This document shows positions 24,088 through 39,362 of a DNA stretch of 64,000 nt, piece by piece; within the stretch, counting starts at the first letter, position 1; the number at the start of each line of letters is the position of its first letter. The stretch lies in contig NZ_OW150024.1 of the NCBI RefSeq assembly GCF_933509905.1, positions 2,406,001 to 2,470,000 of the forward strand. The letters are read 5' to 3'. This DNA comes from Trichlorobacter ammonificans (GTDB taxonomy: Bacteria > Desulfobacterota > Desulfuromonadia > Geobacterales > Pseudopelobacteraceae). The notes below the pieces were generated by a model, which had not been told where the DNA came from, searched no databases, and was given only the letters and a program-made list of their open reading frames with translations. A program made the translations under genes and the position numbers.

Positions 24088-24726
24088 TCATTCCGCCTCC
24101 CGCCCCCGCAGGTCCCGAAACCGTTTCAGACGAAAGGCAGCCTCCCGCTCCCGCTCCCCCAGGAACTGGGCGATGCTGCGCACCTGCCCCTGCAGACCGG
24201 GCAGAATCCGCTCCTCCAGCACCCGTATCCGCCGCGTCACCCGCACCACCTCCCGCCCCAGCCGCCGCACCTTGTTCTCCCAGGCGGCGATATCCAGCAT
24301 CGCCTGCAGGATCTCCTCGAACTGTCGCAGGGTCTCCTCAAGGTGAACCGTGGCAACCAGGGGGTCGTAGCCGCGAGCCAAGGGAGAACGGAGCGGCGAC
24401 TGGCGCACCGTCACCTCCCGATAGCGCAGCCCCATGACGGCATGTTCCCCCACCTCCAGTCCCAGGTCCTGTTCCGCCACCGCGGCCAGGGAAACCAGTT
24501 GCCGGTCCCCTTCAAGGGCCAGGGCGATGGCCAGCTCCCGCAGGGCACGGCCGTAGGCGCTGCGCACCGCATGCCGCGAGGCGAGAAACGGCGCGGTGGC
24601 GGCCAGCAGTTCGCGGATCAGGGCCTGGCGCCGTGCCTTGAGAATGCCGGTGCTGTTCTGCACCGAACGGCTCTTTTCCTTGAGCAGCAGCAGGTTGGTT
24701 CGGGTGGGATGGATCATCGGCGTCAC
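24088..24726 (-). CDS. ntpD: V/A-type ATPase subunit D
   Basis: 212 residues, almost all helix, with the family start HPTRTNLLLLKEKSRSVQ and the end helix RRIRVLEERILPGLQGQVRSIAQFL. D forms the central rotor shaft of the V/A-type enzyme. It begins in a 4-base overlap with subunit B (24723-24726) and is the last gene of the operon. Confidence 0.93.
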   Translation of the reverse strand: MTPMIHPTRTNLLLLKEKSRSVQNSTGILKARRQALIRELLAATAPFLASRHAVRSAYGRALRELAIALALEGDRQLVSLAAVAEQDLGLEVGEHAVMGLRYREVTVRQSPLRSPLARGYDPLVATVHLEETLRQFEEILQAMLDIAAWENKVRRLGREVVRVTRRIRVLEERILPGLQGQVRSIAQFLGEREREAAFRLKRFRDLRGREAE

Positions 24727-26042
24727 TCCGTCAGCGAAAACCGCTCCAGCAACGCGCTCCCCCGGTCCAGGCTCTCCGCCACGCTGCGCCGCTCATCCCC
24801 CTGGTGCACCAGTTCCCGCTCGAAAGCGTCGGCAAAGTCCAGCATCCGGCGGTCCCGCTCCCCCAGCCCGTCGCGTCCCACGATCGCCTCCAGGCGGCGC
24901 AGGTCCCGGCCACGGGCGTAGTGGCGGTAGAGGCGGTTTGCCAGGGCACGGTGATCCTCGCGGGTGCGGCCGGCGCCGATCCCCTGCTGCATCAGGCGGG
25001 AAAGGCTGGGCAGCACGTCCACCGGCGGGAAGATCCCCTGCTGGTGCAGTTCCCGCGACAGCACGATCTGCCCTTCGGTGATGTAGCCGGTCAGGTCCGG
25101 CACCGGATGGGTGATGTCATCCTCCGGCATGGTCACCACCGGCAGCATGGTGACGGAGCCGGGAAGCCCCCGGATCCGGCCGGCCCGCTCGTACAGGGAA
25201 GAGAGATCGGAGTAGAGGTAGCCGGGATAGCCCCGCCGTCCCGGCAACTCCTCCCGGGCCGTGGAGACCTCCCGCAGGGCGTCGCAGTAGTTGACCATGT
25301 CGGTGATCAGCACCAGCACGTCCATGCCGTGGCGGAAGGCCAGGTATTCGGCCACTGCCAGGCCGAAGCGGGGGGCCAGCAGCCGCTCGATCACCGGCTC
25401 TCCGGCCCGGTTGATGAAGGCGGTGAAGCCCCCCTGCATTCCGGACAGCACGTCGAGATAGGCGGCATATTCGTGATGGGTCAGCCCCAGGGCCACGAAG
25501 ACCACCACGAAGCGCCCACCCCCGGCCAGCCGGGCGTTTTTCAGGATACCGGCAGCCATCTCCCGGGCCGGCAGGCCGGCGCAGGAGAAGATCGGCAGCT
25601 TCTGCCCCCGCACCAGGGTATTCAGGGCATCGATGGTGCTGAAACCGGTCTCGATGAAATCCTGGGGCCGGGCACGGGCCACCGGGTTGATCGGGGCGCC
25701 GGAGATCGGCCCCCACCGTTCCGGGATGAAGGGGGGCTCGCCGTCAAGGGGGACGAAGGAGCCGTTGAAGATCCGTCCCACCACCGCGGGGGACAGGGGG
25801 GCCCGCTTGACCGCGTCGCTGAAGACGACGGCGGCATCGGTGCCCAGCCCGCGGGTTTCTCCCATCACCTGCACCAGCACCGTGTCGTTGTCGATCTTGA
25901 TCACTTCCCCTTCCAGGGTTCCGCCATCGGGAGCGGCGATCCGCACCACCTCGCCGAAGCGCACCCGGCGCACCCGGTCCAGGAAGACCAGGGGGCCGCG
26001 GATGGCGGTCACGCTGCGGTAGGCATGTTCACTGAGCCGCAT
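24723..26042 (-). CDS. ntpB: V/A-type ATPase subunit B
   Basis: 439 residues from ATG 26042, chosen because AAGGAGG precedes it; it overlaps the end of subunit A by 14 bases. It is the non-catalytic stator-ring subunit: the P-loop is replaced (SCAGLPAREMA), as usual for B. Conserved stretches include TGFSTIDALNTLVRGQKLPIF, GRRGYPGYLYSDLSSLYERAG and the region TMPEDDITHPVPDLTGYITEG. Confidence 0.95.
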   Translation of the reverse strand: MRLSEHAYRSVTAIRGPLVFLDRVRRVRFGEVVRIAAPDGGTLEGEVIKIDNDTVLVQVMGETRGLGTDAAVVFSDAVKRAPLSPAVVGRIFNGSFVPLDGEPPFIPERWGPISGAPINPVARARPQDFIETGFSTIDALNTLVRGQKLPIFSCAGLPAREMAAGILKNARLAGGGRFVVVFVALGLTHHEYAAYLDVLSGMQGGFTAFINRAGEPVIERLLAPRFGLAVAEYLAFRHGMDVLVLITDMVNYCDALREVSTAREELPGRRGYPGYLYSDLSSLYERAGRIRGLPGSVTMLPVVTMPEDDITHPVPDLTGYITEGQIVLSRELHQQGIFPPVDVLPSLSRLMQQGIGAGRTREDHRALANRLYRHYARGRDLRRLEAIVGRDGLGERDRRMLDFADAFERELVHQGDERRSVAESLDRGSALLERFSLTE

Positions 26043-27660
26043 CGCCGCCTCCTTTTTCCAGGGCCGCATCCAGGGTTTCGCCGGCGGCCAGGCGCTGTTC
26101 GATCCGGCGGTGATCGGCCAGGATAGCGTCGATCAGGGCCACGGTCCGGGACGGCGGACTGAAGGCGTCCTCGCCGTAGGCCCCCTGGCAGAGGAACTCC
26201 TGCCTGATCCGCTCGGCACTGTGCAGGATCAGGCGGTCCTGCTCCTGCATCCCCTCGTGGCCGACGATCTCAGCCACCTCCCGCAGCGCTTCCTCCCGCT
26301 GCAGCAGGCCGCGGCAGCCACGGCGGGCCTCCACCCATCCGGCCGACACGCTGCGGGCAAAGTGCTGTTCCATGGCCTGTTCGTAGAGCGAGTAGCTCTG
26401 GAACCAGTTCACTGCCGGAAAATGACGGCGGTGGGCCAGGGCCGCGTCCAGCATCAGGAAGGCTCCGGCGGTGCGCAGGCAGGCCTGGGTGACCGGTTCG
26501 GTGAAATCCCCCCCCGGCGGGGAGACGGAAAGGATCATGCTCAAGGAGCCGATGGCACCGCTTACGGTCTCCACCACCCCTGCCCGCTCCATGAAGCCGG
26601 CCATGCGGGAGGCCAAGTAGGTGGGATATCCTTCCTCTCCCGGCATTTCCTCCAGGGAGGAGGAGATTTCCCGCAGCGCCTCGGCCCAGCGGGAAATGCT
26701 GTCGGCCAGGAGCAGCACGTGACAGCCCATGTCCCGGAAGTACTCGGCCATGGTGACGGCGGTGTAGATGGAGGCCTCCCGGGCCGCCACCGGCATGTTG
26801 GAGGTATTGGCCACCACGATGGTTCGCTCCATCAGCCGCCGGCCGGTCCAGGGATCGCTCAGGGAGGCGAACTCCTCCAGCAGTTCGGCCATCTCGTTCC
26901 CCCGCTCGCCGCACCCCACGTACACCACCAGGTCCACGTCGGCGAACTTGGCCACCGCCTGCTCCAGAATGGTCTTGCCGGTACCGAAACCGCCGGGGAT
27001 GATGGCGGTACCGCCACGGGCCAGGGGGTAGAGGAAATCCACCACCCGCTGGCCGGTCACCAGCGGTTCGGCGGGCGGGAGTCGGCGGCGGCAGGGACGG
27101 GGCCGGCGTACCGGCCACTGGCAGCAGACCGTGACCGGGGTGCCGTCGGCGTAACGCCCCACCTCCTGGCAGAGGCTGAAGGCACCGGCCGTGAGCGCGG
27201 CAAGCTCTCCGTCACGGGGGGCGGTCACCAGGTGGCGTACCCGCCCCTCTTCGGCATGGCCGATCACCTCGCCGGCCCGCACCGTTTCACCCGCCTCCCT
27301 GAGGGGGACGAAATTCCAACGCGCCGGGCTGTCCAGCAGGGAGGCGCTGCTGCCGGCGCCGATGAAGGGACCGTCCCGCTCCAGCAGCTTTTCCAGGGGG
27401 CGCTGCAGGCCGTCGTACATCCCTCCCAGAAGCCCCGGCCCCAACTGGGCGACAAGGGGGCGGGCCGTCCCCCGCACCGGCTCACCCAGGGCAAGACCGC
27501 GGGTATCCTCGTACACCTGCACCACGGCCCGGTCCCGCTCCAGCCGCACCACCTCGCCGGTCAGGCCGGCGCTCCCCACCAGCACGATCTCGTAGAGCGT
27601 CAGACCGGTCAGTTCCACGGTCACGGTGGGGCCCGCTATGCCGGTGATCACCCCGTTCAT
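26029..27660 (-). CDS. ntpA: V/A-type ATPase catalytic subunit A
   Basis: 543 residues, slightly shorter than the usual 570-600. Walker A GGFGTGKT (near residue 225) and the following FADVDLVVYVGCGERGNEM define the catalytic subunit that hydrolyses or makes ATP. Downstream motifs ADSISRWAEALREIS and GYPTYLASRMAGFMERAG are conserved. It overlaps subunit F by 4 bases. The operon order (G-I-K-E-C-F-A-B-D) is a standard bacterial V/A-ATPase order. Confidence 0.97.
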   Translation of the reverse strand: MNGVITGIAGPTVTVELTGLTLYEIVLVGSAGLTGEVVRLERDRAVVQVYEDTRGLALGEPVRGTARPLVAQLGPGLLGGMYDGLQRPLEKLLERDGPFIGAGSSASLLDSPARWNFVPLREAGETVRAGEVIGHAEEGRVRHLVTAPRDGELAALTAGAFSLCQEVGRYADGTPVTVCCQWPVRRPRPCRRRLPPAEPLVTGQRVVDFLYPLARGGTAIIPGGFGTGKTILEQAVAKFADVDLVVYVGCGERGNEMAELLEEFASLSDPWTGRRLMERTIVVANTSNMPVAAREASIYTAVTMAEYFRDMGCHVLLLADSISRWAEALREISSSLEEMPGEEGYPTYLASRMAGFMERAGVVETVSGAIGSLSMILSVSPPGGDFTEPVTQACLRTAGAFLMLDAALAHRRHFPAVNWFQSYSLYEQAMEQHFARSVSAGWVEARRGCRGLLQREEALREVAEIVGHEGMQEQDRLILHSAERIRQEFLCQGAYGEDAFSPPSRTVALIDAILADHRRIEQRLAAGETLDAALEKGGGDAAQ

Positions 27661-27974
27661 CGCCGCACCTTCACCTGGTAGCCCACGGCCCGGCGGATCA
27701 GCCGCAGGGCGTAATCCTCGGCCGCCGCCGTTCCGAGGGGAGCCGGCAGTACCACCAGCACGCCGGACCAGCGCTGTTCCAGGGCATGGAGCATCTCCTC
27801 CCCCACCTCCTCCACCAGCCGTTCATCAAGGATCACCACCCCGCCGTCGGACGCCGCCAGGGCCTGCTGCAGCAGTTCCGCCACCTGACCGGGCTCAGCC
27901 GCCAACTGGACCGCTCCGCAGCAGGCAAAGCCGTTGTCGGCGTCGGCAGGAGTGACCGCCACCACCCGTTTCAT
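27657..27974 (-). CDS. ntpF: V/A-type ATPase subunit F
   Basis: 105 residues from ATG 27974 (MKRVVAVTPADADNGFACCG). The alpha/beta fold with GGVVILDERLVEEVGEEMLHAL and the ending LRLIRRAVGYQVKV is typical of subunit F, which binds the rotor with D. It overlaps subunit C by 4 bases and subunit A by 4 bases. Longer upstream frames read into subunit C and are not used. Confidence 0.9.
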   Translation of the reverse strand: MKRVVAVTPADADNGFACCGAVQLAAEPGQVAELLQQALAASDGGVVILDERLVEEVGEEMLHALEQRWSGVLVVLPAPLGTAAAEDYALRLIRRAVGYQVKVRR

Positions 27975-28927
27975 CGCCGCAGCTCCGCGGCCACCTGTTC
28001 CGGGCCGATGGCCTCCAGTTTCTCCAGCAGGCCGATCATGGCCGCCTCGTCGCTGCAGCGCCAAAGGTAGTCCAGGATCAGCCCCACCCCGTCGCCGGTG
28101 CGGACCAGGCGAGCGGTCAGACGGCGCCGGGCGATCCGGAGAAGCTGCTCCGGATCGACCTCTTGACCGGCGCCGTCCATCCCCCCCAGGCGTGCCGCCA
28201 GCCGCAGCAGCCCGGCGTTGTCGTTGCGGCGGAACAGTTCGATCAGGCGCGCGGGGTCGAGCGTTCCTCCGGCCAGCAGGCGGGACGGCTCGGTCTGACG
28301 CCAGCGCAGCCCGTTCAGCAGCGCGGAAAGGTTGCGGCTGTCCACAACCAGCGTCAGGCAGCACCGCATCTGCGGATGCAGCGGCCCGGAACAGGCCGCC
28401 TCCAGGGATCGCTCCCAGAGCAGCCGTTCCGTACCGCCGGTTCCGGCGGCGCGAAACGCCGCCCCAAGTCCGCCAAACGCCGGATGGCAGTCCACGAGAC
28501 GGCGCTCCAGCCGCTCCACCGCCCCGGCGCAGCCGCCCCCACTCCGCAGCAGCTCCCTGAGCGGAGCGGCCAGCAGGCTTGCCGCCAACAGCGACTCCGG
28601 CAACGGTTGGCCGCCGGCCAGCAGCCGCAGGCAGACGGCCAACGGCTTCAGCTCCGCCAGCCAGAAGAAGGGGGCCGTGGCCCTTCGCAGCGGTTCCGTC
28701 ATCCGGGCAAAGACCCAGCGGTACTCCCGGCGCAGCGCCTGCAGTGCCCAGTGGGGTTCAGCGGAGGGCAGCGGCCGCCAGGGAGCGGCGGGCAGGGAGG
28801 CCGTTGGCTGGCGGGGCGTCTGCAGATGCTGCCAGTCCCGCACCAGAAAGGAGCGCCGCCCCCGGATACGGGCCAGCAGGCAGTCGGCCGACTGACCGGC
28901 CGGCAGGTCACAGAGCAGCCGTCGCAC
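27971..28927 (-). CDS. ntpC: V/A-type ATPase subunit C
   Basis: 318 residues from a GTG start at 28927. Helix-rich, with LIELFRRNDNAGLLRLAARLGG and the ending IGLLEKLEAIGPEQVAAELRR typical of the funnel-shaped C/d subunit that joins the rotor shaft to the membrane ring. It is diverged in sequence; the call rests on length, C-terminal pattern and position between E and F. Confidence 0.85.
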   Translation of the reverse strand: MRRLLCDLPAGQSADCLLARIRGRRSFLVRDWQHLQTPRQPTASLPAAPWRPLPSAEPHWALQALRREYRWVFARMTEPLRRATAPFFWLAELKPLAVCLRLLAGGQPLPESLLAASLLAAPLRELLRSGGGCAGAVERLERRLVDCHPAFGGLGAAFRAAGTGGTERLLWERSLEAACSGPLHPQMRCCLTLVVDSRNLSALLNGLRWRQTEPSRLLAGGTLDPARLIELFRRNDNAGLLRLAARLGGMDGAGQEVDPEQLLRIARRRLTARLVRTGDGVGLILDYLWRCSDEAAMIGLLEKLEAIGPEQVAAELRR

Positions 28928-29519
28928 CCTCGCCCCCTCCTTCCGTTGTCCGGTCCCCCGGCATGGTTCGCAGCTCCGCCATCAGTGTCGGCAAAAGGTC
29001 GGGCCAGAGCCGGGTCAGCCGCGTTTCCAGGCTGTTGTCCACCGTAAGGCTGCCATCGGCAGAGACCGCCCGCAACCCGCCGGACAGTGCCGGGTCCGTG
29101 GTCACCGTCACGCCCGGAAAGCAGGCTTCAGCCACCTGCCGGTCGACCTCGGCCACCGTCACCGTTCCCCAGGCCAGCTCCGGCAGTTCCCCTGCCAGCC
29201 GACGGAACAGTCCTTCATCACCACCGGAACACACCTGGCCGAGACAGGCCTGTGCCCGTTCCCGCAACCGCAGGGCCAGGAGGTGCTCGGCCCGCAGCCG
29301 GATCAGCGCCGCCTCCCGGGACGCCGTTGCCAGCAGGGCAGCGCGGCGCTCGTCACAGCAGCGGGCCAGCTCCCGTTCATGGCGCTGTCGCTCGTCGGCG
29401 CTTTGCTCCGCCGCCGTCCGGCGCAGCCGCGCTTCCTCCGCCGTCTCCCCGGCGGCAATCGCGGCCAGGGTTTCCGCGCCCTCCCGCTGCAGCGCCTCCA
29501 GCAGTTCCCGCCGTCCCAT
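28908..29519 (-). CDS. ntpE: V/A-type ATPase subunit E
   Basis: 203 residues. A long N-terminal helix rich in Ala, Arg and Glu (EALQREGAETLAAIAAGETAEEARLRR) forms the peripheral stalk with subunit G/H; the C-terminal alpha/beta head follows (GTVTVAEVDRQVAEACFPGVTV, SVDNSLETRL-like end at LTVDNSLETRLTRLWPDL). It overlaps subunit C by 20 bases. Confidence 0.88.
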   Translation of the reverse strand: MGRRELLEALQREGAETLAAIAAGETAEEARLRRTAAEQSADERQRHERELARCCDERRAALLATASREAALIRLRAEHLLALRLRERAQACLGQVCSGGDEGLFRRLAGELPELAWGTVTVAEVDRQVAEACFPGVTVTTDPALSGGLRAVSADGSLTVDNSLETRLTRLWPDLLPTLMAELRTMPGDRTTEGGGEGATAAL

Positions 29520-29528
29520 GACCCGGAC

Positions 29529-29741
29529 TCACTTGTTGAGGATCATGGTGGCGATCACGAACCCCAGGATCACCATGGTCTCGGGAATGGCCAGCAGGAT
29601 GATCACCGTGCCGGTCAGCTCCGGTCGTTCGGCGATGGTGCCGGCGCTGGCCGCGCCGATCCGCGACTGGGCCCAGGCCGTGGCAACGGCGCAGAGCCCC
29701 ACTGCCAGGGCGGCGGCGAAACAGATCAGGACCTTTTCCAT
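29529..29741 (-). CDS. ntpK: V/A-type ATPase membrane rotor subunit K (c), two-helix form
   Basis: 70 residues from ATG 29741 with AAGGAGG. Two TM helices make a small (8 kDa-type) c-subunit, unlike the doubled 16 kDa K of Enterococcus. Ion-site residues can be read: Q25 in helix 1 (AWAQSRIGAASAG) and E54-T55 in helix 2 (AIPETMVILG). Q...E(S/T) is the ligand set of Na+-binding c-subunits, so Na+ coupling is likely, though H+ use cannot be excluded. Confidence 0.9.
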   Translation of the reverse strand: MEKVLICFAAALAVGLCAVATAWAQSRIGAASAGTIAERPELTGTVIILLAIPETMVILGFVIATMILNK

Positions 29742-29773
29742 GGGATGACCTCCTTGACTGGGTGTATGCGGCG

Positions 29774-31618
29774 TCACTCCTTGCGCAGCGGTTCGAATCT
29801 CCTGCCTCCGGGCTCCACGAAGGTGCCGAGGAACTCCACGAAATGGAGTCGCAGCCCGTGGATGGCGGGGGCGAACAGCCCCAGCAGGATGGCCACGCCG
29901 TGCAGGGCGATGGCGGCCAGGGCGCCGAGGACCAGGTTGCCGGACAGACCGGCCAGGTGATTGGCCGCATTGGCCAGCAGGGCCGAACTGAGCCCGATGG
30001 CCATGATCCGGGCGTAGGAAACGATGTTGCCGATGGTCTTGACCATCTCCAGGGGGGCCAGCAGTCCGCCGGACAGCACCAGCAGCGGCAGCAGCAGGCC
30101 GATCAGCAGCAGGATCGGCCGGGACAGCAGCCAGGGGGAGGGATAGAGCCGGGAAACCGCAAGCATGGCCAGGCAGGCGATCAGGCTGATGCCGGCGACC
30201 CGCGCCACCGCTTCGCTGCGCTGGTGATGCCGCAGCGCCGAAATCACGCCCAACAGCATCCCCAGCAGCATGTGGCATCCTCCCAGTGCCAGCGAAAACA
30301 CCAGCATCGGCAGCACCGCCGTGCTCCGCTCCGGCAGAAGGGGCGTCAGGTGCAGCAGGCGTCCCCCCGCCTCGCCGAAGAATTCGCCGAACAGCATGCC
30401 GAACAGGATGGCGTAGCTGGATGAGACGAGCAGAATGCGGGCGCCGTCGCCGACGGCACCCGTCGGCCGGCGGCGGCGCAGCCAGAGGGCCGCGAGCAGC
30501 AGTACCAGGCCGTGCCCCGCGTCACCCAGCATCATGCCGAAGAAGAGCGGAAAGAAGACGGCGATGAACGGGGTCGGGTCCCAGGACGAGTAGCGGGGCA
30601 GCGGCAGCAGGCGGGTAAACAGCTCGAAGGGACGGATGTAGGGAGGATTGCGCAGGGCCACCGGCACCTTGTCCAGGTCATGCTCCAGGATATCCCGGCG
30701 TTCCAGCACCACCCTGCCGCCGAAGCGGCTGTTCAGGGCCGTGGCCAGGGCTTCGCTCCGCTCGCTCAAGGCCCAGCCGTGGATGACGAAGCACATGCCG
30801 GTACGCCGGACCGAACCGGTCGCCGCCAGCAGGGCCAGCCGCTGCGCCAGCCAGTGATCGATACGGCGGTAGAAGGCCAGCCAGCGCCGGGCGAACTGTT
30901 CCCGCTCCCCGTCGACGGCAGCCAGCAGACCGCGCAGTTCGGCAAGACGTTCCTGCAAACGGGCGATCCGTTGCGGCAGGGGGAGATGGCCCACTGACTC
31001 CGGCAGGGGTAGTTCGGGGAGCTGTTCGTTGTTCAGCGCTTTCCTGATGACCGCGCTGCGGGAGGGAGGGGCGGCGATCAGGCCGATCAGGGTGCCGTCG
31101 CCGGCACGGGTGGTGGTGAGGGTGTATTCGCCGTCCACCAGCAGGGTAAGGGCCTCCCGCAGGCGCTCCACCCAGGAGGGGTCGCGCAGGGTGATGCCGA
31201 TGAATTCCAGGCCGTCGTGGTCCTGGCGGTCGCTGATCAGCCGGTCGATGGCCGTCAGCAGGTGCTCGTAGCGTGCCAGCTCCTCCTCTTCCCTGCGCAG
31301 CGTTTGCCGCCGTTCTTCGAGGTTGCGGCAGAAATCCAGGTGCTGCGTCACGGTGACGGCGATGGTGTCCAGCACGGTCAGGGGGTCCAGCCGGCTTGCG
31401 GTAACGTCGGGGGACGGCAGGAGGGCAATGATCTCGCCGGTGCGACGGCGGAGGTTTTCCAGGAAGAGGCGTTCCGCAACCACCCGTTCGTCGGCCGCCG
31501 ACACCCCGGTCTCCTCCTCCTCGATCTGGAAGATTCCCTGTTCCCGGATCAGCTCCAGCACTTCCAGCAGCAGCTCCCGGGGACCGGCCACCTCAAGCCT
31601 GCTCATGCTGACGATCAT
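29774..31618 (-). CDS. ntpI: V/A-type ATPase subunit I (a)
   Basis: 614 residues. A cytoplasmic N-terminal half with coiled coils (residues about 1-330) is followed by a membrane half with some seven TM helices (FIAVFFPLFFGMMLGDAGHGLVLLL onward). FFGMMLGDAGHG and the late arginine-bearing helix region (VSYARIMAIGLSSALLANAANHLAG) are family hallmarks; the latter provides the channel arginine opposite E54 of the c-ring. It starts in a 4-base overlap with the G/H subunit. Confidence 0.94.
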   Translation of the reverse strand: MIVSMSRLEVAGPRELLLEVLELIREQGIFQIEEEETGVSAADERVVAERLFLENLRRRTGEIIALLPSPDVTASRLDPLTVLDTIAVTVTQHLDFCRNLEERRQTLRREEEELARYEHLLTAIDRLISDRQDHDGLEFIGITLRDPSWVERLREALTLLVDGEYTLTTTRAGDGTLIGLIAAPPSRSAVIRKALNNEQLPELPLPESVGHLPLPQRIARLQERLAELRGLLAAVDGEREQFARRWLAFYRRIDHWLAQRLALLAATGSVRRTGMCFVIHGWALSERSEALATALNSRFGGRVVLERRDILEHDLDKVPVALRNPPYIRPFELFTRLLPLPRYSSWDPTPFIAVFFPLFFGMMLGDAGHGLVLLLAALWLRRRRPTGAVGDGARILLVSSSYAILFGMLFGEFFGEAGGRLLHLTPLLPERSTAVLPMLVFSLALGGCHMLLGMLLGVISALRHHQRSEAVARVAGISLIACLAMLAVSRLYPSPWLLSRPILLLIGLLLPLLVLSGGLLAPLEMVKTIGNIVSYARIMAIGLSSALLANAANHLAGLSGNLVLGALAAIALHGVAILLGLFAPAIHGLRLHFVEFLGTFVEPGGRRFEPLRKE

Positions 31619-32094: not shown

Positions 32095-33783
32095 TCAGGG
32101 CCGTCCGTGGAAGAGGGAGGTAATGCAGCGGAACAGGTGATAGCGGCTGCCGCTCACCCGCCAGTCCAGCTCATGCTTGCCGCAGAGGGTATCGAGACGG
32201 TTCAGCTGCCGGATCTCCTCCCTGAGCGCTGCGTCCGGCGGGTCGCCGCTGTCCAGCCGCGCCACCACCCGGCGGGCCCGCTCGATCTGCTCCCTGATCC
32301 GGCGCGATTCGGCGGCACTGACCAGACCGTGGCGTTCCTTCAGCACCACCAGGGCCTCGGCGCCGTCGTAGGTGGCGCTGACGATCTCGTCCCGGGTCAT
32401 CCAGGCGGTCTCGTAGTTCAGCCGTTGTTTCCAGCTCGGCATCAGCATGGCCCGGCGGTGATCGGCCAGGCTCCGGTAGAATAGGCGATACCCCATCTCT
32501 TCGGGATTTTGAAAAGCCCGGCTACCGGGGTCCACGAACGGTGCCAGGGGAGCAAGGAAGGGGAGCAGCTTGCCGCCGGCGCCGAACCGCTCCAGCAGGT
32601 CGCCGCAGTAGGCCACCGACGCCTGCACCGAGGCGTAACTTTGCTCCGGCAGTCCCACCATGAAGAAAAGGTCGATCCGCCGACAGGGGCTGGCAACCAA
32701 CGCCTCCAGCGACTCCTCCAGCAGGCGGTTGTCGAACTGCTTGCCGAAGGCCCGTCTAACCCTGATGTCGTGGGATTCCGGCGACAACTCCACGTTGAAA
32801 TGGGCGATGCTTTCCGACAGCCGCTCAATAATCCGGCGCGAGGGGGGATGAAAAAATTCAACGGCCAGTTCATTGGCAATGCGATGGCGACCGATGGCGG
32901 TGAAGAAGGCATCGGCATACTCCGGGCCTGCCTGGAGCAGGTCGCCGATGATCATGATCGGTGCGCCGGTATGATCGGCAATGGCGGCGATGTCGTCGGC
33001 CAGAAGCTGCGGCGAGCGAAATGCCGGCGCGGTGCGCACGCAGACCTCGCTGAAGGCCGACGACGAGGCGCCGCAGCCGGAACAGTCATGGTTGCAGCCG
33101 CGGCAGGTAAAGACCGCCAGCACCGGGTGTTCCAGCCAGTTGAGGTAGGGAAGATACCCCACCGGGTCGCGGTATTTGAGCAGCATCCGGAAGAAGTGGG
33201 CGTAGTCGTAACGGGCGTGGTCCAGGGTGTCGGGACGCCAGCTGATGCCGTTGTCCACCACCAGGCCCTCCCGGCGCCAGACCAGGTTGGGTATCCGCTC
33301 GAAACCGCCGCCGTTCCGCAACGCCTCCAGCAGCAGCCGCAGCGGTTCCTCGGTGGAATCGCCGCAGACCACGAAATCGACGTAGGGGTGGTCGCGCATC
33401 AGCTCATCGCGAAAGTAGGTGGCGGACAGCCCTCCCAGGATCACCGGCACGTCGGGGTGCTGCCGCTTGAGTTGCTCCGCCAGGCCGAGACTGCCATCGA
33501 CATGGGGAAGCCAGTGCAGGTCGATGCCGAAGGCCCTGCTCTTCAGTCCGGCTGTGAACCGCTCTGCGTCAAAGGTACGGTCCCGCAGCATCTTCAGGGC
33601 CAGGTTGACCACCCGCACCTCGAACCCGTGACGGGTGAGATACTCCGACAGGGTCAGGAAACCGATCGGATAGCCTTCAAAAATCGAGGTGGAGGGGATG
33701 ACGTCGCTCACCGGCCCCAGGAAGCAGGGAAGTTCGCGAAAACGGAAAATGCTGGGCGGGTGCAGCAGGGTCAGGTCGGTCAT
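32095..33783 (-). CDS. B12-binding-domain radical SAM protein
   Basis: 562 residues from ATG 33783 (MTDLTLLHPPSIFRFRELPC). The N-terminal part is a cobalamin-binding-like Rossmann domain (GFEVRVVNLALKMLRD, VPVILGGLSATYF, YVDFVVCGDSTEEPL). The radical SAM cluster motif CNHDCSGC (CxxxCxxC) follows FTCRG near residue 255. It resembles the B12-rSAM group with a TIGR04190-like layout; the substrate is unknown. It lies 150 bases upstream of the V-ATPase operon on the same strand. Confidence 0.82.
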   Translation of the reverse strand: MTDLTLLHPPSIFRFRELPCFLGPVSDVIPSTSIFEGYPIGFLTLSEYLTRHGFEVRVVNLALKMLRDRTFDAERFTAGLKSRAFGIDLHWLPHVDGSLGLAEQLKRQHPDVPVILGGLSATYFRDELMRDHPYVDFVVCGDSTEEPLRLLLEALRNGGGFERIPNLVWRREGLVVDNGISWRPDTLDHARYDYAHFFRMLLKYRDPVGYLPYLNWLEHPVLAVFTCRGCNHDCSGCGASSSAFSEVCVRTAPAFRSPQLLADDIAAIADHTGAPIMIIGDLLQAGPEYADAFFTAIGRHRIANELAVEFFHPPSRRIIERLSESIAHFNVELSPESHDIRVRRAFGKQFDNRLLEESLEALVASPCRRIDLFFMVGLPEQSYASVQASVAYCGDLLERFGAGGKLLPFLAPLAPFVDPGSRAFQNPEEMGYRLFYRSLADHRRAMLMPSWKQRLNYETAWMTRDEIVSATYDGAEALVVLKERHGLVSAAESRRIREQIERARRVVARLDSGDPPDAALREEIRQLNRLDTLCGKHELDWRVSGSRYHLFRCITSLFHGRP

Positions 33784-34004
33784 GGAAGCGGTTCCGTAGC
33801 AGCCCTGAAGGGGCGAAGAGCTGGATAACTGTTGTAGTATACCAGCAGGACACACAAACGCAACATAGAGATTTTACATTATTTTTTTCTTCATACCCTT
33901 GCGATGCCGCCAGACGGGGGTATATTGGTATCAAATTCATGTTTGTCGACACCAACCATTTTCAGCACCACGCTGCCCGCGGCCGGCAGAGAAGGGAGGG
34001 CTCC

Positions 34005-35198
34005 ATGCCGCGCACACCCTTTGACCAGTGGAACGATGACGAACCCTGCGCCGAATACCTGGCACGCCAGGGGGTCAGCCGCCGCCAGTTCCTGTCGTTG
34101 TGCGGCCGGATTGCCGCGGTTCTCGGCTGCGGCGGCCTGGTGGCCGGCGGCCGGAGCGAGGCGCTGGCCAAAGAGATCGCCCAACGGCTGGCCGGTGCCA
34201 CACGACCGGTGGTGGTCTGGCTGCAGCTTCAGGAATGCACCGGCTGCCTGGAAAGCGCCCTCCGTTCCGGTGACCGCACCCTCGAAAACCTGATCCTCTC
34301 CATGGTTTCCCTTGAGTACAACGAACTGCTGATGGCTCCGGCCGGTTCCCGGGCCAACGAGGTGCTGGACAACGCGATTGCCCGGCCGCACCTGCTGGTG
34401 GTGAACGGTTCCATCCCGTTGCGCGACAAGGGAGTTTACTGCGTGATCGGCGGCGAAACCGCCGAGGAGCAGTTGCGCCGGGCCGCCAAAAACGCCACCG
34501 CCGTGCTGGCGGTGGGAGCCTGCGCCCACTACGGCTCGGTCCAGGCGGCCGCTCCCAATCCCACCGGCGCCGTGGGGGTAGAGGAGATCATCCGGGACCG
34601 GCCGGTGGTGAACCTGGCCGGCTGTCCCCCCATCGGCGAGGTGATCACCGCCACCCTGCTCTACTATCTGGTCTATGGCCACACCCCGCCCCTGGACCGG
34701 GAGGGGCGGCCGCTCTTCGCCTATGGCCAGCGGATTCACGACAAGTGTCCCCGCCGGGCCCACTACGATGCCGGCCAGTTCGTTACCGACTTCGACGACG
34801 AAAGTGCCCGCAGGGGGTACTGCCTCTACAAGGTGGGGTGCAAGGGGCCGGCCACCTTCGCCCCCTGTCCGATCATCGAGTGGAACCAGGGAAGCGGCTC
34901 GCCGATCAAGGCCGGCCACCCCTGCCTGGGCTGCACCGAACGGGACTTCTTCGACCGGATGAGCCCCTTCTACGAACGGATGCCGTCCCTGGACGTTCCG
35001 GGAGTGGGGGTGGAACTGACCGCAAACCGGATCGGTGCCGCCGTGGTGGGTGCCTCCCTGGCCGGCGTGGCGGTGCACAGCGCCGCCACGGTGCTGCGCA
35101 AGCGCCAGTCCCGCAAGGAACAGTCGGAGCCCCTGCCGCTGGCCGTGCTGGGTGATGAGGAGGCGTCCGGCGACACCAGCAGGGAAAGCGACAGATAA
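34005..35198 (+). CDS. [NiFe] uptake hydrogenase small subunit, TAT-exported
   Basis: 397 residues; GAAGGGAGGG precedes ATG 34005. A twin-arginine signal (SRRQFLSLCG, R26-R27) leads to export as a complex with the large subunit. The proximal [4Fe-4S] site is seen in QECTGCLESALRSGD; further cluster ligands follow in the C-terminal part (CPRRAHYDAG, CLYKVGCKGPATFAPCP, HPCLGCTERDFFD). A C-terminal TM helix (IGAAVVGASLAGVAVHSAATVL) anchors it to the periplasmic membrane face. It passes electrons from H2 to the cytochrome b subunit. Confidence 0.96.
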   Translation: MPRTPFDQWNDDEPCAEYLARQGVSRRQFLSLCGRIAAVLGCGGLVAGGRSEALAKEIAQRLAGATRPVVVWLQLQECTGCLESALRSGDRTLENLILSMVSLEYNELLMAPAGSRANEVLDNAIARPHLLVVNGSIPLRDKGVYCVIGGETAEEQLRRAAKNATAVLAVGACAHYGSVQAAAPNPTGAVGVEEIIRDRPVVNLAGCPPIGEVITATLLYYLVYGHTPPLDREGRPLFAYGQRIHDKCPRRAHYDAGQFVTDFDDESARRGYCLYKVGCKGPATFAPCPIIEWNQGSGSPIKAGHPCLGCTERDFFDRMSPFYERMPSLDVPGVGVELTANRIGAAVVGASLAGVAVHSAATVLRKRQSRKEQSEPLPLAVLGDEEASGDTSRESDR

Positions 35199-35225: not shown

Positions 35226-36947
35226 ATGGCACCCCAGCGTATCGTCATAGACCCGATCACCCGTATCGAAGGGCACCTGCGCATCGAACTGGAAACCGAC
35301 AACGGCAGGATCAGCAACGCCTGGGCCTGCACCACCCAGTTCCGCGGCATTGAAAAGATTCTCCAGGGGCGTGACCCCCGCGATGCCTGGGCCCTGGTGC
35401 AGCGGATCTGCGGCGTCTGCACCGGCGTCCACGCCATCGCCTCCATCCGTGCGGTGGAGGATGCCCTCAAATACCCGATCCCCCGTGCCGCCGAACAGAT
35501 CAGAAGCCTGATGATGGATATGGGCACGGTACAGGATCATGTGATTCACTTCTACCATCTGCACGCCCTGGACTGGGTGGATGTGACCAGCGCCCTCAAG
35601 GCCGATCCGGAGAAAACGGCCCGGCTGGCCGCAACCCTCGCCGACTGGCCCACCAATTCGGCGGCAAACTTCCGCGCCGTGCGCGACAAGGTGCAGCAGT
35701 CGGTGGCCGGCGGCCAGTTCAGCATCTTCAGCAACGGCTACTGGGGACACCCGGCCTACCGCTTGCCGCCGGAGGCCAACCTGCTGGCCCTGGCCCACTA
35801 CCTGGAAGCCCTGGAGTGGCAGCGGGACGTGATCCGGCTGCAGACCATCTTCGGCGGCAAGAATCCCCACCCCAACTTTCTGGTGGGGGGGATGGCCTGC
35901 GCCATCAACATGGACAACCAAGCCACGGTCAACCAGGTTTCCCTGGCCCAGTTGGAGGGGATGGTGCAGCGTGCCCGTGCCTTCGTGGAAAAAGTCTACC
36001 TGCCGGACCTGCTGGCCATCGCCTCCTTCTACAAGGAGTACGCCGACATCGGCGCCTCCAGCCCGCACCTGATGGCAGTGGGCGAAGGAGGCCTCTCCTG
36101 GGCCGGTAGCCCCTCCGGCACCGTCAAGCCGGGGATCGTACGGGACGGCGACGTGACACATCTGCTTCCCTTCGACCACAAGAAAATAGCCGAGTTCATC
36201 ACCTCCTCCTGGTACGTTTACCCGGACGGTGACCAGGCGGGACGCCATCCCTGGCAGGGGGAAACCGTGCCGCGCTACACCGGCCCCACCCCGCCTTACC
36301 AGCAGCTTTCCGCCCATCGCAAGTACACCTGGTGCAAGGCCCCCCGCTACGACGGCAAGCCGATGCAGGTGGGACCCAATGCCCGGCTGCTCACCGCCTA
36401 CGCCCAGGAGCATGAAGCCACCGTGGCCCTGCTGACCGGAACCCTGGACCGGCTGGGGCTCAAACCGGCCCAGCTCAACTCCACCCTGGGGCGGACCCTG
36501 GCACGGGGACTTGAGTCGCAGTTGATCGCCCGCCGCATGAGCGATACCTTTGCCGCCTTTGTGGAGACGATCCGGCAGGGAGAGACCGCCACCTTCAACC
36601 CAGCCCTCTGGGAGCCGGAATCCTGGCCGAAAAGCGCCCAGGGGGTCGGTTTCATGGAGGCGGCACGGGGCACCCTCAGCCACTGGGTGCAGATCGAGAA
36701 CCGCAAGATCGTGCGCTACGAATGCGTGGTGCCCAGCACCTGGAACAGCTCGGGACGGGACGGCCAGGGGCAGCTTGGGCCCTACGAGCACGCCCTGGCC
36801 GGCAACGGCCGCCATCCCCTGCAGGACCCGCAACGCCCGCTGGAGGTGCTGCGCACCATCCACTCCTTTGACCCGTGCCAGTCCTGCGCGGTACACCTGA
36901 CCGACCTGCGGGGCAGGCCGTTGGGAGAGGAGGTGACGGTACGATGA
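35226..36947 (+). CDS. [NiFe] uptake hydrogenase large (catalytic) subunit
   Basis: 573 residues. The nickel is held by RICGVCTGVH (C62, C65) and DPCQSCAVH (C551, C554), the L1 and L2 motifs. The 16 residues after H557 are the tail normally removed by a maturation endopeptidase; no such protease or hyp gene is in the window. It exits by the TAT pathway with the small subunit. It starts 27 bases after that gene and overlaps the next by ATGA. Confidence 0.97.
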   Translation: MAPQRIVIDPITRIEGHLRIELETDNGRISNAWACTTQFRGIEKILQGRDPRDAWALVQRICGVCTGVHAIASIRAVEDALKYPIPRAAEQIRSLMMDMGTVQDHVIHFYHLHALDWVDVTSALKADPEKTARLAATLADWPTNSAANFRAVRDKVQQSVAGGQFSIFSNGYWGHPAYRLPPEANLLALAHYLEALEWQRDVIRLQTIFGGKNPHPNFLVGGMACAINMDNQATVNQVSLAQLEGMVQRARAFVEKVYLPDLLAIASFYKEYADIGASSPHLMAVGEGGLSWAGSPSGTVKPGIVRDGDVTHLLPFDHKKIAEFITSSWYVYPDGDQAGRHPWQGETVPRYTGPTPPYQQLSAHRKYTWCKAPRYDGKPMQVGPNARLLTAYAQEHEATVALLTGTLDRLGLKPAQLNSTLGRTLARGLESQLIARRMSDTFAAFVETIRQGETATFNPALWEPESWPKSAQGVGFMEAARGTLSHWVQIENRKIVRYECVVPSTWNSSGRDGQGQLGPYEHALAGNGRHPLQDPQRPLEVLRTIHSFDPCQSCAVHLTDLRGRPLGEEVTVR

Positions 36948-38113
36948 GCAGCCGGACGGCAGAAGATATTCATGTCGCCCTGGGGGTACCGATGGCCTTT
37001 GGCGGCGAGACCAGCCGCGACCTGCTGGTGGCGGCCGCCCTGGCCGCACGGGCAGGCACCACCGACCCGGTGGACCTGGCGCTGCTGGGGGCTGCGGCCC
37101 ACACGGAAGATCTGCGCAATTACCAGCAGCTTTCCTACACGCCGCCCGATCCCCGGTTCAAGCGGAGCATCACCAGGGTGCGCAACCTGGAGACCGGCAA
37201 CGAGGAGCTGATCGCCCGGGGCAACCTGGAGTCGATCCTCTACCTCTGCCGGGCCGATGAAGCCACCCGCTACCATGCCGGCATGGAGGCCGACCTGAGC
37301 GAGGTGGACGACTTCCGGGCCGTGGGGGTGGCCCACGGCAGCGCTCCGCGACCGGACGGCAGCGAGGAATGGACCTTCCTCGGGTTCATTCCGGTCAAGG
37401 CGGTACGCCGCAAGACCAGCCGCGCGGAGACCCCCAACGTCTACCGCTACGTGGTGGTCTGGGACTGGCAGCTCCGTTTCCTGCACTGGGCCGCGTTCCT
37501 CACCATTCTGCTGCTCTGCCTGACCGGCTGGCTGATCGGCAGCAGCCGGCTGACCCACGGCGGCATCGGCGAGGACACCTACTACCTGGGCTGGCTGCGT
37601 CTGGTGCATTTCAGCGCCGGATGGCTGCTGGTGACCATGGGCATCCTGCGGATCGCCGGCCTGTTCCTGGCCTCCACCAGGTATCAGCGCTGGCGGGCCC
37701 TGTTCCCGATCACCCTGAAGGATCTGAAGAACCTGTTCCTGGTGGGGCGCAACTACCTGCTCTGCATCTTCGAGCACGGTCCCCACTACGTGGGCCACAA
37801 CCCGTTGCAGCAGGTGGCCTACACCGGCATCTACCTGATGGCGCTGGTGGCGATCCTGAGCGGCTTCTGCCTCTACGTCGCCTACGACCCCGCCTTCTGG
37901 TTGTTCCGGCCGTTCATGCTGCTGAACGGGCTGATCGGCATCCAGTACATCCGCCTGATCCACCTGGCCATGCTCTGGGTCTTTCTCGCCTTCATCCCGA
38001 TCCATGTGTATCTCGCCATCCGTGCCGACACGGTGGAACGGGAAGGAGCCATCTCCTCCATCTTCAGCGGCGGCCGCTGGTGCCGCAAGGGAACCCGCTT
38101 CGAGGACGACTGA
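36944..38113 (+). CDS. Hydrogenase cytochrome b subunit fused to a P-type ATPase N-domain-like segment
   Basis: 389 residues. The C-terminal 220 residues are a four-helix HyaC/HupC-type di-heme cytochrome b with histidines in FLHW, VHFSAGW, LIHLAMLW and IPIHVYL; it hands hydrogenase electrons to quinones. The first 165 residues are not part of that family. They read like the nucleotide-binding domain of PMA1-type P-ATPases: DPVDLALL (41-48), SYTPPDPRFKRSITRV (64-79), ARGNLESILYLC (91-102, where ATPases have KGAPE), DFRAVGVA (123-130), WTFLGFIP (143-150). No P-domain, DKTGT or actuator is present. Start overlaps the large subunit stop. Confidence 0.85.
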   Translation: MSSRTAEDIHVALGVPMAFGGETSRDLLVAAALAARAGTTDPVDLALLGAAAHTEDLRNYQQLSYTPPDPRFKRSITRVRNLETGNEELIARGNLESILYLCRADEATRYHAGMEADLSEVDDFRAVGVAHGSAPRPDGSEEWTFLGFIPVKAVRRKTSRAETPNVYRYVVVWDWQLRFLHWAAFLTILLLCLTGWLIGSSRLTHGGIGEDTYYLGWLRLVHFSAGWLLVTMGILRIAGLFLASTRYQRWRALFPITLKDLKNLFLVGRNYLLCIFEHGPHYVGHNPLQQVAYTGIYLMALVAILSGFCLYVAYDPAFWLFRPFMLLNGLIGIQYIRLIHLAMLWVFLAFIPIHVYLAIRADTVEREGAISSIFSGGRWCRKGTRFEDD

Positions 38114-38198: not shown

Positions 38199-39362
38199 CT
38201 ACGAGCGTTTTTTCGCCTTCCGGTCCGGCTCCGCTGCTTTCTCCGGCTGCTGCGGTGGTACCGCATCCCTGGTCACCACCAGTTCCGTCCCCCCCTTGCC
38301 GTCCGGCTTCAGGATCGACAGCACGCTGTGGGGAGGAATGGAGGGCGGCGTCACCAGTTGCCTGCCCGATTTCTCGAAGGCCTGATTGAGCGCCTCGATG
38401 GTCTCCTGATCCGTAACCAGCTCTTCTTTTTTCCCGGGAAGTACCCAGTCGCCGCTGCTCTTGCGGATAATCCGCTGCTCCGTCGCACCGTTTCTGAGCC
38501 GGTTCAGCTTGCTTTTCACCGACTCCCGCCCCACCGCCTCCCGCACCCCCTTGATTTCAGCACCAAGCAGCTCGGCAAAACGCTTGTCGAATGCGGCCAG
38601 TTTCTTTTCCTGAATCTCGGCGGCTTCGGTGGCGATGAAGGAAACCTTGTCCTGGCGCTCTTGCAGGCGCTTCTGCTGCATGGCCAGGTAGCCCATCCCC
38701 GCCAGCAGCAGGACCAGGGCCAGGAGCGACAGCACCAGGAACCAGGGGGAGAGGGCGCTGGTGACCCGGGCCGTGCGCAACTGCCCGGCGGTCTGCTCGG
38801 TATCGTCGGCCACCTTCTGCACGATGAGCGAGAGCTCCGTTACACTTTTGGCGGCTTCTTCCGCCATCGCCTGCTGGGACCGGGTCATCTCCGCCAACAG
38901 CGCCATAAGGTCGTCGGCTTTTTTCTCCGTCGAACGGACCAGGCCCGTAAGCTGCTCCAGCGTCTCCGCCTGCTGCTCCAGCGTCTCCGCCTGCTTCTCC
39001 AGCGCAGATGCCGGCTGGGCAGACGGCACCGTCTCAGCCAGCCCCGCTGCTCCCCCTGAATTCAGGAGGTGCGAAAGGGTCTGCATCGCCTGCTCCGAGG
39101 CAGGGGGGATGATATCCGGTTCCTCGTCTCCCCCCGACGGTTTCGCTTCACCAGCCTCAGTGCCCTCGTTCGGCTCGGGATACTGCTGAGCCGCTACGTC
39201 AACGCCGCCCTCGACCTCAGCTTCACCGGCTGCAGCGGACGGCACCGCAGCCCCGTCGGCGGAAGACTCCTCCACTGCGGCAACCGGCTCGCCGGTCATC
39301 GCTCCCGTGGCGGCTCCATCCTCGGCAACGGACGGCGTCTTCTCCTCCTCAATGCTGTTCAT
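38199..39362 (-). CDS. Membrane protein with acidic N-terminus and coiled coils, unknown function
   Basis: 387 residues. Residues 1-110 are acidic, Ala/Glu-rich and probably disordered. A helical repeat follows (EKQAETLEQQAETLEQLTGL), then a coiled coil to about 200 and one TM helix (FLVLSLLALVLLLAGMGYLAM). The C-terminal half has another coiled coil (RLQERQDKVSFIATEAAEIQEKK) and a basic tail. It has no signal peptide and no recognised family. The layout suggests a chemoreceptor- or MCP-like scaffold without a signalling tip, but that is speculation. It stands alone. Confidence 0.75.
   Translation of the reverse strand: MNSIEEEKTPSVAEDGAATGAMTGEPVAAVEESSADGAAVPSAAAGEAEVEGGVDVAAQQYPEPNEGTEAGEAKPSGGDEEPDIIPPASEQAMQTLSHLLNSGGAAGLAETVPSAQPASALEKQAETLEQQAETLEQLTGLVRSTEKKADDLMALLAEMTRSQQAMAEEAAKSVTELSLIVQKVADDTEQTAGQLRTARVTSALSPWFLVLSLLALVLLLAGMGYLAMQQKRLQERQDKVSFIATEAAEIQEKKLAAFDKRFAELLGAEIKGVREAVGRESVKSKLNRLRNGATEQRIIRKSSGDWVLPGKKEELVTDQETIEALNQAFEKSGRQLVTPPSIPPHSVLSILKPDGKGGTELVVTRDAVPPQQPEKAAEPDRKAKKRS

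Follow-up and report, generated by a model that had tools for sequence, protein, structure and literature searches.

A P3A-type ATPase N-domain fused to a hydrogenase b-type cytochrome in Trichlorobacter ammonificans

The hydrogenase operon and its fused gene

The window, i.e. the whole stretch of 64,000 nucleotides analyzed here, contains on its forward strand a [NiFe]-hydrogenase operon with the gene order hydS-hydL-cytochrome, in which a Tat-exported small subunit and a large subunit precede a cytochrome with an additional N-terminal domain. The following features are found:

33939..35198, + strand: hydS, [NiFe]-hydrogenase small subunit (TIGR00391, E=2e-125)
35226..36947, + strand: hydL, [NiFe]-hydrogenase large subunit (NF007550, E=1e-174)
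36928..36934, + strand: Shine-Dalgarno sequence AGGAGGT, 9 nt 5' of the ATG at 36944
36944..38113, + strand: fusion of a P3A-type N-domain with a hydrogenase b-type cytochrome, 389 aa (sequence and profile matches)
36944..37408, + strand: N-domain homologue, residues 1-155 (TIGR01647, AlphaFold2 model, Foldseek, alignment with P3A pumps)
37409..37456, + strand: linker, residues 156-171, basic and of low confidence (pLDDT mostly <50; approximate dN/dS 0.42)
37457..38071, + strand: Ni_hydr_CYTB domain, residues 172-376 (PF01292, E=9e-23; E. coli HyaC 4gd3, E=5e-21)

The small subunit carries a twin-arginine signal (RRQFLSL) together with a C-terminal membrane anchor and is periplasmic. Its proximal cluster reads ECTGC, which we take to lack the additional Cys found in oxygen-tolerant enzymes; the closest solved sequences are nonetheless those of the oxygen-tolerant Hyd-1 of E. 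coli and HoxK. The fused frame lies on the same strand as hydS and hydL, starts with an ATG that overlaps the hydL stop codon (ATGA) and has its own stop codon ending at 38113. In-frame ATG and GTG codons exist further downstream, but a translation start at one of these, by which the N-terminal segment would not be made at all, has a negligible probability, since ribosome-binding sites like AGGAGGT also precede the start in the fusion relatives examined and the segment is conserved as protein under purifying selection.

Several further genes surround the operon. A B12-binding radical SAM protein (TIGR04190) is encoded at 32095-33855 on the minus strand, divergent from hydS. Its closest relatives (at least 73% identical) are confined to those genomes of the same family that possess the fusion, five including that of the window, and the gene adjoins hydS in three of the loci read, the copy of genome G031 having an in-frame TAA. 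On the other side, convergent with the cytochrome gene, a 387-aa protein (38199-39362, minus strand) shows by eye one apparent membrane segment and a heptad-like region; it belongs to no family in Pfam or NCBIfam. A V/A-type ATPase cluster (subunits I, c, E-like, A, B and D; 24088-31618, minus strand) is also located near the operon. A functional link between this ATPase and the fusion is unsupported, since subunit I occurs in 23 of the 141 genomes of the order and in only 6 of the 20 that possess the fusion.

Identity of the N-terminal domain

We identify residues 1-155 as a P3A-type N-domain and regard this assignment as practically certain. The P3A H+-ATPase profile TIGR01647 matches residues 22-151 at profile positions about 314-440 of 755 (E=1.1e-13), all 20 fusion relatives match the same profile at E<=1e-3, and the sequence of the solved pump AHA2 (5ksd) matches residues 24-156 with E=3e-4. 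An AlphaFold2 model of the domain, built from an alignment of the fusion relatives only, reaches a mean pLDDT of 79 (about 90 for residues 11-100). When this model is compared with solved structures by Foldseek, Pma1 (E=2e-9, TMq 0.68) and AHA2 (E=5e-7, TMq 0.70) are both among the top three, and all 50 matches listed are P-type ATPases. Pfam gives no match to the N-terminal domain, so an annotation based on Pfam only would overlook it.

An alignment with ten P3A pumps from the same order allows the borders to be set. Its first strand is the one that directly follows DKTGTLTxN in the pumps (entry hinge strand, IHVALGVP), and its last the one that directly precedes DPPR (exit hinge strand, WTFLGFIPVKAVR), so that the fused segment is the whole N-domain, cut at its hinges. 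A P-domain (DKTGT), an A-domain or pump membrane helices are present neither in the 389-aa protein nor elsewhere in the operon. The earlier note, whose open reading frame and coordinates are correct, had described a PMA1-type H+-ATPase N-domain fused to a hydrogenase cytochrome b and lacking P- and A-domains. Sequence and predicted fold both bear this out, and the motifs follow each other in the order that it gave, namely DPVD (41-44), PPDPRFKRS (67-75), RGNLE (92-96), FRAVGVA (124-130) and WTFLGFIP (143-150).

With the N-domain of the P3A pumps (TIGR01647; Pma1, AHA2) the fused domain shares the order of helices and strands, the DPVD pair, both hinge strands and the overall fold; the Gly of KGAP and the Arg equivalent to SERCA R560 are also kept. 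Unlike Pma1 and AHA2 it is without A-, P- and pump membrane domains, its KGAPE motif is replaced by ARG[NDE][LV], the adenine-stacking Phe is gone and a cytochrome is attached. A convergent resemblance, i.e. a different domain sharing these motifs by chance, could at best appeal to the missing Pfam family and is highly improbable: profile, solved-sequence match and fold search all point to one superfamily, and the same order of elements throughout the whole domain already contradicts it.

Cytochrome part and topology

Residues 172-376 match PF01292 (Ni_hydr_CYTB) with 81.4 bits against a cut-off of 30.1, and the equivalog profile for b-type cytochromes (TIGR02125) gives 120.7 bits, just under its cut-off of 121.5. 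The nearest solved relative is HyaC of E. coli. Like the Hya-type b-type cytochromes (PF01292/TIGR02125; HyaC) this part represents a four-helix cytochrome b561-like domain with conserved His residues, encoded in a hydS-hydL-cytochrome operon; it differs from them by about 155 more N-terminal residues and by its association with a separate large-subunit lineage. H181 is conserved in 20 of 20 relatives, and H222, H340 and H354 in all 19 full-length rows. Judged from the family, these four residues are candidate haem ligands.

Loop 2 of the cytochrome is basic, as is the linker, in contrast to loops 1 and 3. According to the positive-inside rule the N-domain would thus be located in the cytoplasm, opposite to the Tat-exported catalytic subunits, and together with the family topology this makes a cytoplasmic N-domain probable. 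A full-length AlphaFold2 model (mean pLDDT 67, pTM 0.41) does not place the N-domain against the membrane part.

Distribution and evolution

A search for the fusion across the order detected it in 20 of the 141 genomes, distributed over the families f1, f3 and f4, with one copy cut by a contig end. The fused cytochrome is found directly behind hydL in all 20 cases, and hydS precedes hydL in every fusion region read that reaches far enough. Large subunits at least 66% identical to that of the window occur in 20 genomes, which are exactly the 20 possessing the fusion. The next-best HydL sequences are at most 57% identical, and the unfused cytochromes examined belong to these; those examined from the same order begin near the first membrane helix. 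No fusion was found outside the order among 277 genomes of the class, in 395 genomes sampled phylum-wide with a strict cut-off, or on plasmids. The remaining N-domain matches among the 141 genomes of the order and the 277 of the class belong to long open frames (586-972 aa), most of which have the length of an ATPase. A different architecture is thus not seen among them, leaving aside the frame of 586 aa. A search with exact peptide patterns in bacterial and archaeal genomes yielded one match only, sharing 24 residues and presumably located in an RsmI-like methyltransferase (so named from its sequence), which we reject as chance.

The same genome contains one fused and one unfused Hya-type hydrogenase operon, the latter at G000:C1:1268732-1272166 (L100 4733-8164). 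Both have the order hydS-hydL-cytochrome. The HydL of the unfused operon is 55% identical to the fused lineage, and its cytochrome (at most 244 aa) starts just before the first transmembrane helix and is without an N-domain.

Phylogenetic reconstruction places the fused sequences on one side of a single branch both in the cytochrome tree (52 rows, support 100/100) and in the N-domain tree (37 rows, support 100/100). The fusion therefore has a single origin. Fused and pump N-domains are separated by a long branch of 2.2 changes per site.

Median dN/dS values (Nei-Gojobori) amount to 0.22 for the N-domain, 0.19 for the cytochrome and 0.42 for the linker, all of them approximate because dS is often near 1. 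The frame of the N-terminal segment is open in 20 of 20 relatives and contains 40 invariant columns. Judged from these substitution patterns, the fused N-domain is kept under purifying selection. The earlier note had spoken of a relic, and this word does not fit a domain that is maintained by selection. A decaying segment that is translated but neutral would find some agreement in the scattered occurrence of the fusion (20 of 141 genomes) and in the partial loss of the ATP site; it is nevertheless very unlikely, given that its dN/dS is near that of the cytochrome, that the frame is intact throughout, and that the domain is strictly linked to one HydL lineage.

Nucleotide pocket

The residues of the N-domain that correspond to the nucleotide site of the pumps are:

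37064..37075, + strand: D41-P-V-D44, aligned with Asp372/Asp375 of AHA2 (both Asp invariant, 20/20)
37145..37162, + strand: P68 (position of the adenine-stacking Phe) and K73 (K492 position), from the alignment of the relatives
37217..37231, + strand: R92-G-N-L-E96, replacing KGAPE (R92 and G93 invariant, 20/20)
37316..37318, + strand: R125, equivalent of SERCA R560 (Arg in 19/20, Lys in 1)

SERCA equivalences beyond Phe487 and Arg560, such as the K492 position, are those that we presume. Of the 20 fusions, 8 have Lys or Arg at the K492 position and the other 12 Ala or Cys. The stacking Phe, present in 10 of 10 pumps compared, is Pro, Leu or His in every fusion, and the Lys of KGAP is Arg in all 20. 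Six residues are invariant in the fusions and not in the pumps, namely R58, R78, R80, E87, Y100 and R109. Alignment with 5ksd assigns D41, D44 and A126 to Asp372, Asp375 and Ser457 of AHA2, the numbering assuming that the 5ksd chain starts at residue 12, which agrees with how the three residues are spaced. In the AHA2 model the adenine is contacted by Asp372 and Asp375 and the ribose by the backbone of Ser457 (PMC5387105), and for SERCA Phe487 and Arg560 were named necessary for nucleotide binding (PMC3203174).

The pocket or surface of the N-domain is rebuilt, i.e. neither intact nor decayed. Nucleotide binding by the fused domain is possible but not predicted, since every relative shows changes to the pocket while the acidic pair and the R560-equivalent Arg are kept. 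The most serious alternative among those considered, proposed in the earlier note, assumes an adenine-nucleotide sensor, in which the N-domain would bind ATP or ADP in the cytoplasm and make H2 oxidation or quinone reduction depend on the energy charge of the cell. It can build on the invariant D41/D44, aligned with residues that contact adenine in AHA2 (PMC5387105), on R125, on the conservative replacement of the KGAP Lys by Arg and on the probable cytoplasmic location. We consider it possible, though less likely than not, because a Phe named as necessary for binding in SERCA (PMC3203174) is lost in all fusions and kept in all pumps compared, the majority of fusions have Ala or Cys at the K492 position, KGAPE is not kept, and a long branch lies between fused and pump domains.

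Putative function

The following course of events is consistent with these observations. The gene of a Hya-type hydrogenase cytochrome b acquired, in a single event, the complete N-domain of a P3A pump, severed at both hinge strands. The host hydrogenase faces the periplasm and, like other members of its family, is probably linked to quinones. Purifying selection and the strict linkage to one HydL lineage show that the domain was retained as part of a functional protein, and charge and family topology would put it on the cytoplasmic side, connected with the first transmembrane helix by a tether of about 15 residues. ATP hydrolysis of the P-type is impossible, since the phosphorylated Asp resides in the P-domain, which the protein lacks. 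The pocket has been rebuilt by keeping the acidic pair and one Arg, losing the stacking Phe and the KGAP Lys, and acquiring Arg residues invariant in the fusions only. Such a non-catalytic domain may tune electron transfer from the hydrogenase to the quinone site or may hold a cytoplasmic partner, and it would probably act via a changed ligand or partner surface and not via canonical ATP binding.

A repurposed, non-catalytic regulatory or docking domain in the cytoplasm, probably acting close to the quinone side of the cytochrome, is the reading that we favour, with a somewhat better than even chance of being right. Against it counts that D41/D44, R125 and the conservative exchange of Lys for Arg could mean that nucleotide binding survives. 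More specifically, the pump-free N-domain might be a cytoplasmic ligand sensor, regulating how electrons pass from a respiratory hydrogenase into the quinone pool, a proposal that we put forward tentatively and hold to be possible though on balance doubtful. In that case the ligand may be ATP/ADP or another phosphorylated signal, bound by the new Arg residues.

Biological significance

The enzyme is of a known kind, but the domain architecture of the fused protein is new. Text searches of an open-access literature library reveal no description of this fusion, nor of a membrane-bound uptake hydrogenase controlled directly by a cytoplasmic ligand or of a P-type N-domain free of its pump. To our knowledge no membrane-bound uptake hydrogenase is under direct control of a cytoplasmic ligand, and we know of no P-type ATPase N-domain that is in use outside a pump. 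With about 155 residues, the N-domain forms one soluble unit, which makes the question directly testable. If the domain senses a ligand, the enzyme itself would be the point at which the use of H2 is coupled to the energy state or the signalling of the cell. Were it to serve for docking only, it would still represent a piece of a classic ion pump that was excised at its hinges, moved to another protein and kept there.
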